Positions 3,596-52,478 of a stretch of 64,000 nucleotides of DNA are shown in pieces; the stretch's first letter is position 1; each line of letters begins with the position of its first letter. The notes below the pieces were generated by a model that searched no databases, was not told the DNA's origin, and saw only the letters and a program-made list of their open reading frames with translations. The translations under genes were made by a program, and so were the position numbers. The DNA comes from Acidimicrobiales bacterium (GTDB taxonomy: Bacteria; Actinomycetota; Acidimicrobiia; Acidimicrobiales; RAAP-2): positions 1 to 64,000 of the forward strand of contig JANXWA010000006.1 in assembly GCA_025351385.1 (NCBI GenBank), written 5' to 3'.

Positions 3596-3644
3596 GCCAA
3601 AAAGGAGACCCGCCCGCTCGTGGATGGACCACGAGCGGGCGGGT
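3596..3644 (-). terminator. Intrinsic terminator of tRNA-His
   Basis: A 16-bp perfect stem (3608-3623 with 3629-3644) around a 5-base loop, followed on the minus strand by TCTCCTTTTTGG. This stem plus T tract directly follows tRNA-His. Confidence 0.85.
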
Positions 3645-3653
3645 GCACTTTGG

Positions 3654-3728
3654 GGTGAGCGACGGGGGTCGAACCCGCGGCCTCCAGGACCACAACCTGG
3701 CGCTCTAACCAACTGAGCTACGCCCACC
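3654..3728 (-). tRNA. tRNA-His (GTG)
   Basis: Minus-strand cloverleaf: acceptor GTGGGCG/CGCTCAC, anticodon loop TTGTGGT (anticodon GTG), T arm GCGGG-TTCGACC-CCCGT. An extra 5' G (3728) faces discriminator C (3654), the G-1 identity element specific to tRNA-His. CCA is not encoded. Confidence 0.97.
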
Positions 3729-46169: not shown

Positions 46170-47579
46170 GTGGCCTCACCGAGTGTGTTGACCCCCCAGG
46201 CCGAGGACTTCCCCCGCTGGTACCAGGACGTGGTCGCCAAGGCCGAGATGGCCGACAACGGCCCGGTGCGCGGCACCATGGTGATCCGGCCCTACGGCTA
46301 CGCCATCTGGGAGCGGATGCAGGCCGAGATGGACGCCCGGATCAAGGAGACCGGCGCCCAGAACGCCTACTTCCCGCTCTTCATCCCCGAGAGCTACTTC
46401 CACCGCGAGGCCGAGCACGTCGAGGGCTTCAGCCCCGAGCTGGCGGTCGTCACCTTCGCCGGTGGCGAGGAGCTGGCCGAGCCGATCGTGGTGCGCCCGA
46501 CCTCCGAGACGGTGATCGGCGAGTTCATGGCGAAGTGGATCCAGAGCTACCGGGACCTTCCGCTCCTGCTCAACCAGTGGTCCAACGTCGTGCGCTGGGA
46601 ACTTCGTCCGCGGCTGTTCCTGCGCTCGTCGGAGTTCCTCTGGCAGGAGGGCCACACCGCCCACGCCACCTACGCCGACGCCGCCGGGTACGCGCTGCGG
46701 ATCCACCTCGAGGTCTACAACGACTTCCTGGAGAAGGTCCTCGCCGTGCCGACGTACCTCGGCATCAAGCCGCCGAGCGAGCGTTTCGCCGGTGCGATCA
46801 ACACCATGACCGCCGAGGGGATGATGCGCGACGGCAAGGCGCTGCAGATGGCGACGAGCCACGAGCTGGGACAGAACTTCGCCAAGGCCTTCGACGTCTA
46901 CTACCAGAGCGAGGAAGGCCAGGCCGCCCTGTGCTGGACCACCTCGTGGGGAGCCTCGACGAGGCTCGTGGGCGGGCTCATCATGGCCCACGGCGACGAC
47001 GCCGGCCTCGTCGTCCCGCCGAACCTCGCCCCAATCCAGGTGGTCGTGGTCGCCGTGCGCGACGAACCCGAGGTGAACGGGGCATGCGAGAAGGTCGCCG
47101 CCGCGCTGAAGGCGTCGGGGGTTCGCGTCCAGGTCGACCGCGGTCGGGGCAGCTTCGGCCGTCGGGTCACCGACTGGGAGATCAAGGGCGTGCCGATCCG
47201 CGTCGAGGTCGGCCCGCGCGACCTCGCTCAGGGTCTGGTCTCGCTGGTGCGCCGCGACGACGGCGCCAAGGTCCAGGTCGGCGTCGATGCCGTCGCGTCC
47301 GAAGTGCCAGGGATGCTCGCGGCGATGCAGTCCGACATCTTCGATGGTGCGAGGAAGCGGCTCCTCGACTCGACCTTCGACGTGGCCAACGTCGCCGAGG
47401 CGATGGAGGCCGCCACGACCGGCTTCGCGCGACTTCCCTGGTCCGCGGTGGGCGAGGCGGGGGAGGCCCAACTGAAGACCGAGGCCATCACCGTGCGCTG
47501 CCTGCAGCGAAAGGACGGCTCGATCCCCGTCTCCGACACCGAGGACGGCCTCGACTGCATCGTGGCCAAGTCGTACTAG
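46170..47579 (+). CDS. proS: Prolyl-tRNA synthetase, archaeal/eukaryotic type
   Basis: 469-residue class II synthetase charging tRNA-Pro. Its length and order mark the ProS type 3 (archaeal/eukaryotic-like) form without the editing insertion of E. coli ProRS. Motif 2 region is RWELRPRLFLRSSEFLWQEGHTAHA; the anticodon-binding domain starts near 275, and the C-terminus ends with a Tyr (KSY), as in this type. GTG start with AAGGAG. The matching tRNA-Pro is at 5946-6020. Confidence 0.96.
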   Translation: MASPSVLTPQAEDFPRWYQDVVAKAEMADNGPVRGTMVIRPYGYAIWERMQAEMDARIKETGAQNAYFPLFIPESYFHREAEHVEGFSPELAVVTFAGGEELAEPIVVRPTSETVIGEFMAKWIQSYRDLPLLLNQWSNVVRWELRPRLFLRSSEFLWQEGHTAHATYADAAGYALRIHLEVYNDFLEKVLAVPTYLGIKPPSERFAGAINTMTAEGMMRDGKALQMATSHELGQNFAKAFDVYYQSEEGQAALCWTTSWGASTRLVGGLIMAHGDDAGLVVPPNLAPIQVVVVAVRDEPEVNGACEKVAAALKASGVRVQVDRGRGSFGRRVTDWEIKGVPIRVEVGPRDLAQGLVSLVRRDDGAKVQVGVDAVASEVPGMLAAMQSDIFDGARKRLLDSTFDVANVAEAMEAATTGFARLPWSAVGEAGEAQLKTEAITVRCLQRKDGSIPVSDTEDGLDCIVAKSY

Positions 47580-47641: not shown

Positions 47642-47776
47642 TTGTGATGGGCCCTTCGGACTGCTACAATTTGTACCTACAGTCCGCTCAGGACGTTTGG
47701 ACTCGTTAAAGCGCGGGCCTCTGGCCCGCGCTTTCTCTCTGTCTGAACGTCCTGACGACACAGAGAGGAGAAGGCC
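47642..47776 (+). promoter_or_regulatory. Promoter and structured leader of the rimP-nusA-infB operon
   Basis: TTGTGA (47642-47647), a 17-base spacer and TACAAT (47665-47670) form the best consensus promoter in the window; transcription should start near 47677. Within the 100-base leader, a 12-bp hairpin (47708-47719 with 47723-47734, loop TCT) followed by CTCTCTG looks like a terminator. It is enclosed by a 15-bp helix (47688-47702 with 47741-47755, two G-T pairs). CTCTCTGT (47735-47742) is the exact complement of ACAGAGAG (47760-47767) at the rimP ribosome binding site. This suggests attenuation and/or translational control of the operon. Confidence 0.7.
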
Positions 47777-48271
47777 GTGGAACTCGAGACCCCACTGCGC
47801 TCCCTCCTATCCGACCTCGGACTGGACCTCTACGACCTGGAGATGGCCAAGGGGACCCTCCACGTGGTCGTCAACCGGCCCGGCGGCGTGGACCTCGAGA
47901 GCCTCACTAAGGCCAATCGCGCCGTCTCGGAGTGGCTCGACGAGCACGACCCCATCGCCGGGCGCTTCACCCTGGACGTCTCGAGCCCGGGCCTGGAGCG
48001 CAAGCTTCGCACCGCGACGCACTTCGCGACCACCGTCGGCGAGGTCGTGACGCTTCGCGAGATGCGCGACGGCGAGCCGACGCGCCGACTCGAGGGCACC
48101 GTCGTTGCGGTCGAGGACGACGCCGTCACGCTCGACGACTCTGAGCACGGCCGGGTCAGCGTGCCCATCGCACGGATCGAACGCGCGCGCACCGTCTTCA
48201 AGTGGGGTGCCGAGGCCAAGCCCACCCCCTCGCGCGGCAAAGCATCCTCATCGAGCAAGGAAGGTCAGTGA
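47777..48271 (+). CDS. rimP: Ribosome maturation factor RimP
   Basis: 164-residue 30S assembly factor. The N-terminal domain holds the TLHVVVNRPGGVDLESLTKANRAVSEWLD segment and FTLDVSSPGLERKL, the family signature; a C-terminal Sm-like domain follows. GTG start with AGGAGAAGG. Stop overlaps the nusA ATG (TGATG). First gene of the operon behind the structured leader. Confidence 0.95.
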   Translation: MELETPLRSLLSDLGLDLYDLEMAKGTLHVVVNRPGGVDLESLTKANRAVSEWLDEHDPIAGRFTLDVSSPGLERKLRTATHFATTVGEVVTLREMRDGEPTRRLEGTVVAVEDDAVTLDDSEHGRVSVPIARIERARTVFKWGAEAKPTPSRGKASSSSKEGQ

Positions 48272-49422
48272 TGGCGAACTTCGAATTCCTAGAGGCCCTG
48301 GGTCAGATTGCCCGTGATCAGAACATCGACGAGGGGGAGCTGCTCATCGCCCTGGCCAACGCGCTGCTCGCCGCCTACAAGCGCCGTCCCGATTCCGCCG
48401 AGGACGCCGAGGTCGAGATCAACCCCGAGACGGGCGAGATCAAGGTCTGGGGCCTCGAGCTCGACATCGAGGGCAACGTCACGCGCGAGTGGGACGCCAC
48501 ACCCGAGGACTTCGGGCGCATCGCGGCCCAGACCGCCAAGCAGGTCCTGATGCAGCTGATCCGCGACATCCAACGGCGCCAGATGTACGAGGAGTTCGCG
48601 AACCGCGAGGGCGACATCGTCTCGGGCACGGTTCAGCAGAACGACAATCGCTACACGCTGCTCGACCTCGGACGGGTCGAGGCCCTCTTGCCCCAGGCCG
48701 AGCAGATCGCCTTCGAACGCTACGAGCACGGGGCGCGCATCAAGGTGTACATCGTCGAGGTGCGAAAGACGAACAAGGGCCCCCAGATCGTCGTAAGCCG
48801 GACCCACCCGGCGCTGGTCGCCAAGCTCTTCGAGATCGAGGTGCCCGAGATCGCCAACGGCATCGTCGAGATTAAGGCCCTGGCGCGCGAGCCGGGCCAC
48901 CGCAGCAAGATCGCCGTGGCGAGCAACGACCACATGATCGACCCGGTCGGGGCCTGCGTGGGGGCGCGCGGTAGCCGCGTGCGCAACATCACCAACGAGC
49001 TGCGCAGCGAGCGCATCGACGTCGTGCCCTACAGCGACGACCCCATCGAGTTCATCCAGTCGGCACTGCAGCCCGCGCGCGTGCGCGAGGTGCAGCTGAA
49101 CGAGGAGGAGGGCATCGCCACGGTCATCGTGCACGACCAGCAGCTCAGCCTCGCGATCGGCAAGGAGGGCCAGAACGCCCGCCTCGCCGCGCGGCTCACG
49201 GGTTGGCGCATCGACATCCGCTCGGAGAACGAGGGCGTCGAGGAAGAGGTCGTCGAAGAGGTCTGGACCGAGGGTGACGTCGTCGTCGACGAGAAGGTCG
49301 TCATCGTCACCAGCGAAGCCGGGGACGTCGTCGCGGCGGTCGTCGACGACGTGGTGACCGACGCCGAGGGCGGCCACGAGGAGGTCGTCGTGGTCGAGGA
49401 GATCGTGGAGGACGAGGCATAG
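48271..49422 (+). CDS. nusA: Transcription termination/antitermination factor NusA
   Basis: 383-residue RNA polymerase-associated factor. The N-terminal RNAP-binding domain is about 1-125, S1 about 128-200 (GDIVSGTVQQNDNRYTLLDLG), then two KH domains (about 205-345) with GACVGARGSRVRNI and AIGKEGQNARLAARLTGW. A C-terminal Val/Glu/Asp tail (about 350-383) replaces the acidic AR repeats of E. coli NusA. ATG shared with the rimP stop. As a pausing factor it could itself act on the upstream leader hairpin. Confidence 0.96.
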   Translation: MANFEFLEALGQIARDQNIDEGELLIALANALLAAYKRRPDSAEDAEVEINPETGEIKVWGLELDIEGNVTREWDATPEDFGRIAAQTAKQVLMQLIRDIQRRQMYEEFANREGDIVSGTVQQNDNRYTLLDLGRVEALLPQAEQIAFERYEHGARIKVYIVEVRKTNKGPQIVVSRTHPALVAKLFEIEVPEIANGIVEIKALAREPGHRSKIAVASNDHMIDPVGACVGARGSRVRNITNELRSERIDVVPYSDDPIEFIQSALQPARVREVQLNEEEGIATVIVHDQQLSLAIGKEGQNARLAARLTGWRIDIRSENEGVEEEVVEEVWTEGDVVVDEKVVIVTSEAGDVVAAVVDDVVTDAEGGHEEVVVVEEIVEDEA

Positions 49423-49427
49423 CACCG

Positions 49428-49682
49428 GTGCGCACGTGCGTGGTCTGTCGAACCAGGCGCGACGACGCCGAGATGGTCCGGGCCGGACGCGACGCGCACG
49501 GTACGTGGCACCTCGGCCGGGGCGTCGGCCGGGGAATCTGGTGGTGTGGCGAGGGAAGTTGCGGTCCGGCCCTGCGAGTCGGCCACGTGGCCCGGGCGCT
49601 GCGCGCAGAGGCGACCGAGGGCGACGTGGAGGCAGTGCGAGGTCTGATGGCGGGCAGTGGTTCCAATCCGCGGCTGGTGTGA
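49428..49682 (+). CDS. ylxR: YlxR-family RNA-binding protein (DUF448)
   Basis: 84-residue basic protein with the opening MRTCVVCRTRRD (CxxC) and the WHLGRGVGRGIWWC segment (GRGAWLC equivalent) of the YlxR fold. It sits in the invariant nusA-ylxR-infB position. The family binds RNA and has been linked to RNase P and transcription control. GTG start five bases after nusA; no strong ribosome binding site. Confidence 0.9.
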   Translation: MRTCVVCRTRRDDAEMVRAGRDAHGTWHLGRGVGRGIWWCGEGSCGPALRVGHVARALRAEATEGDVEAVRGLMAGSGSNPRLV

Positions 49683-49718: not shown

Positions 49719-49736
49719 GTGAAGCAAGGGAATGTT

Positions 49737-52478
49737 TTGGCCCAGAAGAAGATCCGAGTGCACGAGCTCTCCAAGGAACTCGGTCTCACGAGCAAAGAGT
49801 TGCTCGCGCTCGCCCAAAAACTAGGCATCGGCGCCTCGAGCCCCTCGGCCTCGATCGAGGACGCCCAGGCCGACCGCATCCGCCGACGCGCCGACGCCGA
49901 CGGACTGCGACGCGTCGTGGCGCCCGAGGAGGCCAAGGCCACCAAGGCGGCCAAGACCACGACCAAGTCGACGGTCGCGACGACCGACGTCAATGAGCCC
50001 GAGGTCGCATCGGCACCCGTGGAGGCACCGCCCGCGGTTCGCGTCAGTCGAGTGGCCAAGGCCGCACCGGTCGAGGCGGCAGTGGCGCCGACTACCGACG
50101 CGGTCATCGAGGCCGCTCCCGTGCCCGCGCCCGTCGAAGAGGCGGGCCCCAAGGTCGTACGCAGCAGCGCCGCAGTGGTGAAGCCGGCACCGACCCGCAC
50201 CGTGTCGCCCGACGGTCCCACGACGATTCGTCCGACGCAGCGCTCGGCCTCGGGCGAGGGTGACGGCGCACCCTCCAGCCGTCCGCCCCTCAGCTCGACC
50301 GGTCGGCCCATCCCGCCTCCGCCCGGCCGGCCGCTCAGCGCCTCGGGTCGACCGATCCCGCCTCCGCCCGGTGCGCGTCGCCCGATGCCCACGGGCGCCG
50401 GTCGCCCCTCGGGCCCGGGCGGGCCGCGTCCGATGAGTTCACGTCCGAGCACCGGCGCGCCTCGCACCGGTGGGCCGACCTCTCGCCCCGGTGGCGCGGG
50501 GGGCTTCGCCGGATCACGTCCCGGAGCGCCCGCGAGTGGTGCGCCCGGCGGCCCGAACCGCGGCGGTCCGCCCAGTCGTGGCACCGGTGGCCCCCGCGGC
50601 TCTCAGCGCAAGGCGACCCGACGTCGCCGTCGCAACACCGAAGAGCTCGAGCCGACCCAGATGACGACGTGGCAGCCGAGCAGCCTGCCGGTGCCCGAGG
50701 GCGAAGTCATCATCGAGCGCGGCTCGACGGCCAAGGACGTCGGACCGAAGCTCAACCGCAGCGCCGCCGACATCATCCGCTTCTTGTTCCTCCAGGGCGA
50801 GATCGTCACGGCCGTGCAGAGCCTGAGTGACGACATGATCGAGCTCTACGCCGCCGAAGTCGGCGCCGCGGTGCACCTCGTCGACCCGGGCGAGCAGCAA
50901 GAGGCCGCCCTACTCGCGAAGTTCTTCGACGAGGACGACCAGGACGACGAGATCGCCGCCGTCGCACGGCCCCCGGTTGTCACCGTCATGGGCCACGTCG
51001 ACCACGGCAAGACGCTCCTGCTCGACAAGATTCGCAAGACCGACGTGGTCGCCGGCGAGGCCGGCGGCATCACCCAGCACATCGGCGCCTACAAAGTGAG
51101 TTGGAAGGGCAAGTCGATCGCCTTCATCGACACCCCGGGCCACGAGGCCTTCACCGCGATGCGCGCCCGTGGCGCCAAGGTCACCGACATCATCATCCTG
51201 GTGGTCGCGGCCGACGACGGCGTCATGCCCCAGACCATCGAAGCCATCAATCACGCCAAGGCCGCCGACGTGCCGCTCATCGTCGCGGTCAACAAGATGG
51301 ACAAGGCCGACGCCAACCCCGATCGCGTGCTCCAGCAGGTCAGCGAGTACGGCCTGGTCCCCGAGAAGTGGGGCGGCGACACCATCTGCGTGGAGATCTC
51401 AGCCCTCCAGGGCACCGGCATCGACGAGCTGCTCGAGCAGGTGCTGCTCGTGGCCGAGTTGGCCGAGCTCACCGCTCGCCCGACCGGCCGGGCCGTCGGC
51501 ACCGTGCTCGAGGCGAACCTCGAGGTCGGACGCGGACCGGTCGCCACCGTGATGGTCCAAAAGGGCCAGCTCTCGGTGGGCGACCCCGTCGTCGCCGGCG
51601 CGGCCTACGGCAAGGTGAAGGCGCTGATCAACGACCAGGGCAAGCAGATCAAGTCGGCCGGCCCCTCGACGCCCGTGCAGATCCTCGGCTTCTCCGAGCC
51701 GCCGTTCGCCGGCGACGAGATGCGCGTCGCCCACGACCTCGCTCACGCCCGTTCGCTGGCCGACGCCCGGGCGCAGCGCGCCCGACTGATCGGCCACCAG
51801 CCCGTCGCCTCGACGAGCGGCGCGCGCCTCGAGGACCTCTTCGAGCAGATCCAGCGCGGCGAGACCGCGACGCTCAACATCGTGCTGAAGGCCGACGTGC
51901 AGGGCTCCCTCGAGGCCTGCACCGAGTCGCTCAAGAAGCTCGAGCGCGACGACGTGAAGCTCGTCATCGTGCACCGTGGCGTCGGCGGTATCACGGAGAA
52001 CGACGTGCAGCTGGCGAAGGCCTCCAGCGCCACGATCATCGGGTTCAACGTGCGGCCCGACAAGCGCAGTCGCGAGCTCTCGGAGAACGAGGCCGTCGAG
52101 ATTCGCACCTACGAGATCATCTACAAGCTCATCGAGGAGATCGAGGCGGCCATGCTCGGTCTGCTCTCACCGGTCTTCGAGGAGGTCGTCACCGGCGAGG
52201 CCGAGGTGCGCGAGGTCTTCCGCGTGCCCAAGATCGGTGCCATCGCCGGTTGCCTCGTTCGCGACGGCGTCATCACGCGCGGGTCGAAGGTCCGATTCCT
52301 GCGAGAGGGGACGATCATCTGGAAGGGCTCGGTCACGTCGTTGCGTCGCTTCAAGGACGACGCCCGTGAGGTGCAGTCCGGCTTCGAGTGTGGCGTCGGT
52401 CTCTCCGACTACCAGGACCTCAAGCCCGGCGACATCATCGAGACCTTCGAAGAGCGCGAGATCCCCAGAACGGCCTAG
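49737..52478 (+). CDS. infB: Translation initiation factor IF-2
   Basis: 913-residue GTPase that places initiator tRNA on the 30S subunit. TTG 49737 is chosen: AAGGGA lies upstream and the product begins [16 protein letters not shown], the family opening; a GTG at 49719 adds six residues. An IF2_N module is at the start and another before the G domain. About 60-310 is a disordered Pro/Gly/Arg-rich linker with a duplicated GRPIPPPPG unit. The G domain has GHVDHGKT at 419-426, DTPGHEAF and NKMD. Domains II-IV follow. Confidence 0.96.

Follow-up and report, generated by a model that had tools for sequence, protein, structure and literature searches.

The window analyzed here, a stretch of 64,000 nucleotides from an Acidimicrobiales bacterium, contains a rimP-nusA-infB operon preceded by a leader in which several RNA structures can be drawn. 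The host, a soil bacterium, is a member of an Acidimicrobiaceae group represented by metagenome-assembled genomes and, going by the titles of the records, frequently sampled in bogs and permafrost. The genes that follow the leader are all on the forward strand, in the order rimP, nusA, ylxR, infB, rbfA and truB. The start of nusA (48271 to 49422; Pfam PF08529 and PF13184) overlaps the stop of rimP (47777 to 48271; Pfam PF02576 and PF17384), and ylxR (49428 to 49682), recognized by its Pfam YlxR match, precedes infB (49719 to 52478), which has a Pfam IF-2 match. Upstream of rimP, proS (46170 to 47579) lies on the same strand and ends 197 nt away. The original prediction had placed in this leader a promoter, a 12-bp terminator-like hairpin, a 15-bp helix enclosing it, an AGTCC/GGACT pairing and an 8-base complement to the rimP ribosome binding site, and re-reading the sequence we found every one of these coordinates to be right.

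The rimP operon promoter (47642 to 47670, forward strand) is made of the -35 element TTGTGA, a 17-bp spacer and the extended -10 element TGC-TACAAT. It had been proposed as the best consensus promoter of the window; it is indeed present and conserved in relatives, but two further sites, both within the first 20 kb, equal its score of 9/12, which by itself is near chance (1 found against 0.5 expected). Among the three sites it is the only one with a TG before the -10 element; this TG, three bases upstream, is kept in 31 of 33 aligned relatives, and the 17-bp spacing in 28 of them. From the -10 spacing, transcription is predicted to start at about 47678-47679, where a 5' block, ACAGTCCGC (47679 to 47687, forward strand), begins. 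Across 52 leaders from the host's Acidimicrobiaceae genus this block is almost invariant. In the 33 distinct congeneric leaders, mean column identity reaches 99.7% in the block, and is 97% in GGACGTTTGGACTCG and 95% in the hairpin, compared with 56% in the promoter spacer, 82% in the -10 element, 58% between the -10 element and ACAG, and 74% and 51% in the inner and outer parts of the 3' arm of the enclosing helix. In most of these 33 leaders the invariant block begins 6 to 9 nt past the -10 element, which is the expected transcription start and argues that the constraint acts on the RNA. Upstream of rimP in other genera of the family (L097, L099, L100), CAGTCCGG is kept near the predicted start and the remaining 5' block is different. 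Another group of Acidimicrobiia (L083, L085-L091, L101, L106) has its own conserved block between promoter and hairpin, roughly GCAATCGTTCG..GTTC-GACGAAGGCGTGGGC, in place of which L115-L117, L121, L122 and L124 have a common GGACGCT. As far as these leaders tell, each clade seems to have a private 5' block.

Downstream of this block lies the terminator-like hairpin, which we call P3 (47708 to 47734, forward strand; AAAGCGCGGGCC-TCT-GGCCCGCGCTTT). Its 12 pairs join 47708-47719 to 47723-47734 and carry the GGGC..GCCC signature, so that the stem, GCGCGGGCC-TCT-GGCCCGCGC, agrees with the GGGc(...)gCCC pattern of the rimP-leader attenuator. The pyrimidine tract past P3 (47732 to 47743, forward strand; TTTCTCTCTGTC) contains a U-run weaker than that of most relatives (TTTTTCTTTGTC). 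Judged by the T-stretch expected of such leaders, the tract of the window, TTTCTCTCTG, is interrupted, most congeners having TTTTTCTTTG, and termination in the window may consequently be weak. The leader as a whole folds at -59 kcal/mol, compared with -41.5 ± 3.6 kcal/mol for shuffled sequences (z = -4.9), and none of 200 shuffles was as stable. The 2.18-Mb genome has a single occurrence of the hairpin-plus-T pattern, since a second listed match is this site seen from the opposite strand. The fold, and a conserved promoter of its own, bear out the expected structured RNA in front of rimP-nusA-infB, terminator-like hairpin included, and, judged by its conservation, this is a real RNA leader. 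No antiterminator able to open P3 was found, which leaves a protein or pausing as the source of any regulation. Of the other terminator-like hairpins in the window, the strongest (3608-3644, reverse strand), with 16 pairs followed by CTCCTTTTTG, stands after a tRNA gene (3654-3727) on the same strand and is ordinary.

P3 with its T-run is widespread. A GGG/CCC hairpin and T-run precede rimP in 43 of 50 other Acidimicrobiia and in 2 of 886 control windows; part of this 50-leader set was chosen through covariance-model matches, and among order-level relatives drawn without that bias 13 of 15 carry the hairpin. Across the phylum the same combination is found before rimP in 14 of 26 genomes compared with 3 of 546 controls, and any terminator-like hairpin in 23 of 26 compared with 14 of 546. 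In one actinobacterial group (L141, L143, L145, L147, L151) the hairpin upstream of rimP has the reversed signature AGCCCCT..AGGGGCT, resembling in this the CCCg..cGGG terminator that is reported to lie upstream in Gammaproteobacteria. A RimP_N match is absent in nine genomes of the phylum sample. In six of these Actinomycetota genomes (G442, G444, G457, G469, G478 and G488; leaders L169, L170, L171, L172, L173 and L174), which have no recognisable rimP in profile searches of 95-98% complete genomes and no match over the cut-off to the second RimP domain family, a TATAAT-like promoter and a hairpin stand directly before nusA. These hairpins are of the form AGTGGGY..RCCCACT (GTGGG/CCCAC) with a T-run, five of the six passing the hairpin criterion and the sixth (L171) being recognized by eye. 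As for the other three, L175 and L176 have a diverged RimP-like frame behind the hairpin, and in L168 the start is too close to the contig end to be read.

These distributions bear on two other explanations of the hairpin. With proS ending 197 nt upstream on the same strand, P3 could be the plain terminator of proS, or could insulate rimP from it. However, the hairpin comes after the rimP promoter, and the leader keeps its place next to rimP in genomes where proS is missing or 288 to 873 nt distant, so that it is not a proS terminator; it also stands before nusA in the genomes without a rimP match. This reading is largely refuted, and we regard it as highly improbable. The second explanation accepts regulation by feedback and assigns it to RimP instead of NusA. 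The usual position of the leader before rimP favors RimP, which was also weighed as a candidate regulator when the rimP-leader was described (PMC2965389). Nevertheless, the six genomes without a recognisable rimP retain the same promoter and hairpin directly before nusA, so that the leader follows nusA and not rimP, and feedback by RimP seems to us very unlikely. NusA feedback, which the original prediction had called plausible, stays so, the leader accompanying nusA even where rimP is not recognisable.

In the genus of the host, P3 is enclosed by a second helix, P2 (47688 to 47755, forward strand), whose 15 pairs join 47688-47702 to 47741-47755 and which is possible only after read-through of P3. 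Its conserved part is 47694-47702 with 47741-47749; support is confined to the inner 9 to 10 pairs, the outer six being special to the window and its nearest relatives. Both partners have changed at six pairs, four of P2 and two of P3, in a set of 51 distinct sequences; this gives 19 cells compared with 4.5 ± 1.7 in shuffles, none of 500 reaching as high. The alignment was fitted to the P2/P3 structure, and the changes are nonetheless plain in the sequences themselves. Paired cells make up 89% in P2 and P3, compared with 20-46% in slid control helices. On the RimP tree, independent double changes in P2 fall on separate branches (L022, L030, L035 and L082/L126), and those in P3 in L127, L020/L075, L022 and L128, being of the GC to AT type in three lineages. 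The P2 pairing CGTTTGG:CCGAACG becomes CGATTGG:CCGGTCG in L022, CGATTGG:CCAGTCG in L030, CGTATGG:CCGTACG in L025 and CGTCTGG:TCTGGACG in L128. The original prediction had made its case depend on covariation among relatives, and for the enclosing helix such compensatory changes are found. P2 is imperfect: one inner position has no standard pair in 15 of the 51 sequences, and much of the 3' arm is lost in L024, L026 and L058. An arm-swapping energy test (own arms -16.4, swapped -15.4, shuffled -9.9) is weakly informative because the 5' arm hardly varies. Among the sequences examined P2 is confined to this genus, in contrast to P3 and its T-run, which are found across the class and phylum.

The first nucleotides of the transcript can pair in two competing ways. 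A small hairpin, P1 (47682 to 47694, forward strand), joins GTCC (47682-47685) to GGAC (47691-47694) around a loop of variable length, its arms being nearly invariant. In the alternative, P1' (47679 to 47706, forward strand), ACAGTCC (47679-47685) faces GGACTcGT (47699-47706), a pairing that includes the predicted AGTCC/GGACT (47681-47685 with 47699-47703). With mean energies of -5.4 kcal/mol for P1 and -5.2 kcal/mol for P1', the two are isoenergetic. The AGTCC/GGACT pairs are present in 99% of cells; since these pairings are invariant, covariation cannot judge P1 or P1', and AGTCC/GGACT is neither supported nor refuted by it. A tentative and rather doubtful extension is that in this genus a simple rimP-leader has been turned into a true RNA switch, in which the two GGAC repeats would compete, in isoenergetic hairpins, for a single GTCC; a third partner, transcribed only once P3 has been read through, would capture the second repeat and lock the leader open, and NusA or pausing would choose the fold.

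Two further readings assign other functions to the structured region. In the first, put forward in the original prediction, the pyrimidine tract past the hairpin sequesters the ribosome binding site of rimP (AGAGGAGA, at the inferred position 47764 to 47771, forward strand) by pairing with it and so controls translation. The complement is real, 47735-47742 matching 47760-47767 over eight exact bases in the window, and combined with P1' the pairing would give -38.5 kcal/mol. P2, at -48.0 kcal/mol, is about 10 kcal/mol better and excludes it, and its probability in the full-length fold is 0. Furthermore, the congeneric leaders revealed no conserved or covarying ribosome-site pairing: 76% of cells are paired compared with 75% when the helix is slid by three columns, and the frequency of double changes does not exceed that in the slid controls, a U-rich tract and a purine-rich ribosome site pairing almost by default. 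Sequestration of the ribosome binding site is accordingly unsupported, and we would give it little credence. The more serious rival is that the rod formed by P2 and P3, with 27 pairs, is no attenuator but sets the decay of the mRNA, either as a target of RNase III or as a stabiliser of the 5' end, as the E. coli metY-nusA leader is cut by RNase III, starting decay of the downstream mRNA (PMC5371410). However, RNase III needs no T-run after a stem, and P2 is restricted to the genus in the sequences examined, whereas P3 with its T-run is found class- and phylum-wide; we therefore think a processing role unlikely, if less so than the other alternatives. A leader-peptide attenuator was also considered and rejected: an NTG codon is present in 50 of 52 leaders, but the stops are scattered from codon 3 to beyond codon 100 and the frame relative to rimP varies.

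Together, the evidence makes it probable that the region is a transcription attenuator of the rimP-leader kind for rimP-nusA-ylxR-infB. From a start at about 47678, RNA polymerase would produce P3 with its U-rich tail within about 60 nt, where some polymerases may stop and others read through. NusA, the product of the second gene, would most likely favor stopping and in this way limit its own operon. The first 28 nt, which contain one GTCC and two GGAC repeats, could adopt either of two isoenergetic folds, P1 and P1'. After read-through, P2 would act as a clamp, capturing the second GGAC, enclosing the terminator hairpin and fixing the read-through fold, with the ribosome binding site staying outside it, beside the helix. 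Attenuation with feedback by NusA agrees with the position of the terminator-like hairpin, which in all these lineages precedes nusA and lies 30 to 60 nt past the predicted start. Inspection by eye for a NusA-binding sequence shared with the rRNA leader revealed nothing like GGACTCG in the 16S leader; a boxA-like stretch, GCTCCTTGAAAACGGAAG, lies upstream of the 16S rRNA in the same genome (L052, about 620-650).

Proposals that NusA regulates its own operon by feedback go back to 1985 (see the references in PMC2965389), and the E. coli operon is under such control (PMC6511841). The leader described here probably also lets NusA limit its own production. In B. subtilis, according to a review, NusA stimulates termination in a leader (Mondal et al. 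2016 as cited in PMC12288461). As presented in that review, the system shares with ours a NusA operon whose leader contains an intrinsic terminator, with NusA-stimulated termination as the proposed mechanism, and differs in that the evidence there is experimental and in the Acidimicrobiaceae leader only inferred. In S. agalactiae, RNA-seq of the rimP (gbs0413) leader revealed a transcript terminating 31 nt after the start (PMC4448216). The arrangement is similar, with a short terminated and a long transcript from one start and a terminator very near it; that organism is a Firmicute, and the element was described there only as a predicted intrinsic terminator.

The Rfam rimP family, RF01770, concerns the same operon and is different from the element described here: among the control genomes it matches E. 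coli only, with no match in the window or in 10 relatives, and no Rfam family matched the window at its gathering score or at E up to 5. The core hairpin, GGGC..GCCC with a U-rich tract, is the already known 'rimP-leader' attenuator, predicted for most bacteria and called the most ubiquitous attenuator (Naville and Gautheret 2010, PMC2965389). The original prediction had described rimP leaders with premature terminators as predicted in Gammaproteobacteria; they were, yet not only there, the prediction extending to most species (PMC2965389). In the open-licence papers searched, no actinobacterial leader of this kind with an enclosing helix is described. To the question of whether NusA or RimP is the signal, the nusA-first genomes without a recognisable rimP provide a comparative answer in favor of NusA. 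The Acidimicrobiaceae leaders, with their near-invariant 5' block and covarying clamp, offer a defined RNA for direct tests of NusA recognition. Our leader and the published rimP-leader share the position before rimP-nusA-infB, the terminator-like GGGc..gCCC hairpin and the proposed NusA feedback; the tail is T-rich in most congeners and interrupted in the window. The general motif was reported without a larger conserved element (PMC2965389), and to this the genus leader adds its 5' block and covarying clamp helix; what is new is consequently the genus-level elaboration, with its pair of GGAC repeats, its alternative hairpins at the 5' end and its clamp helix possible only after read-through, together with the comparative test of the regulator.
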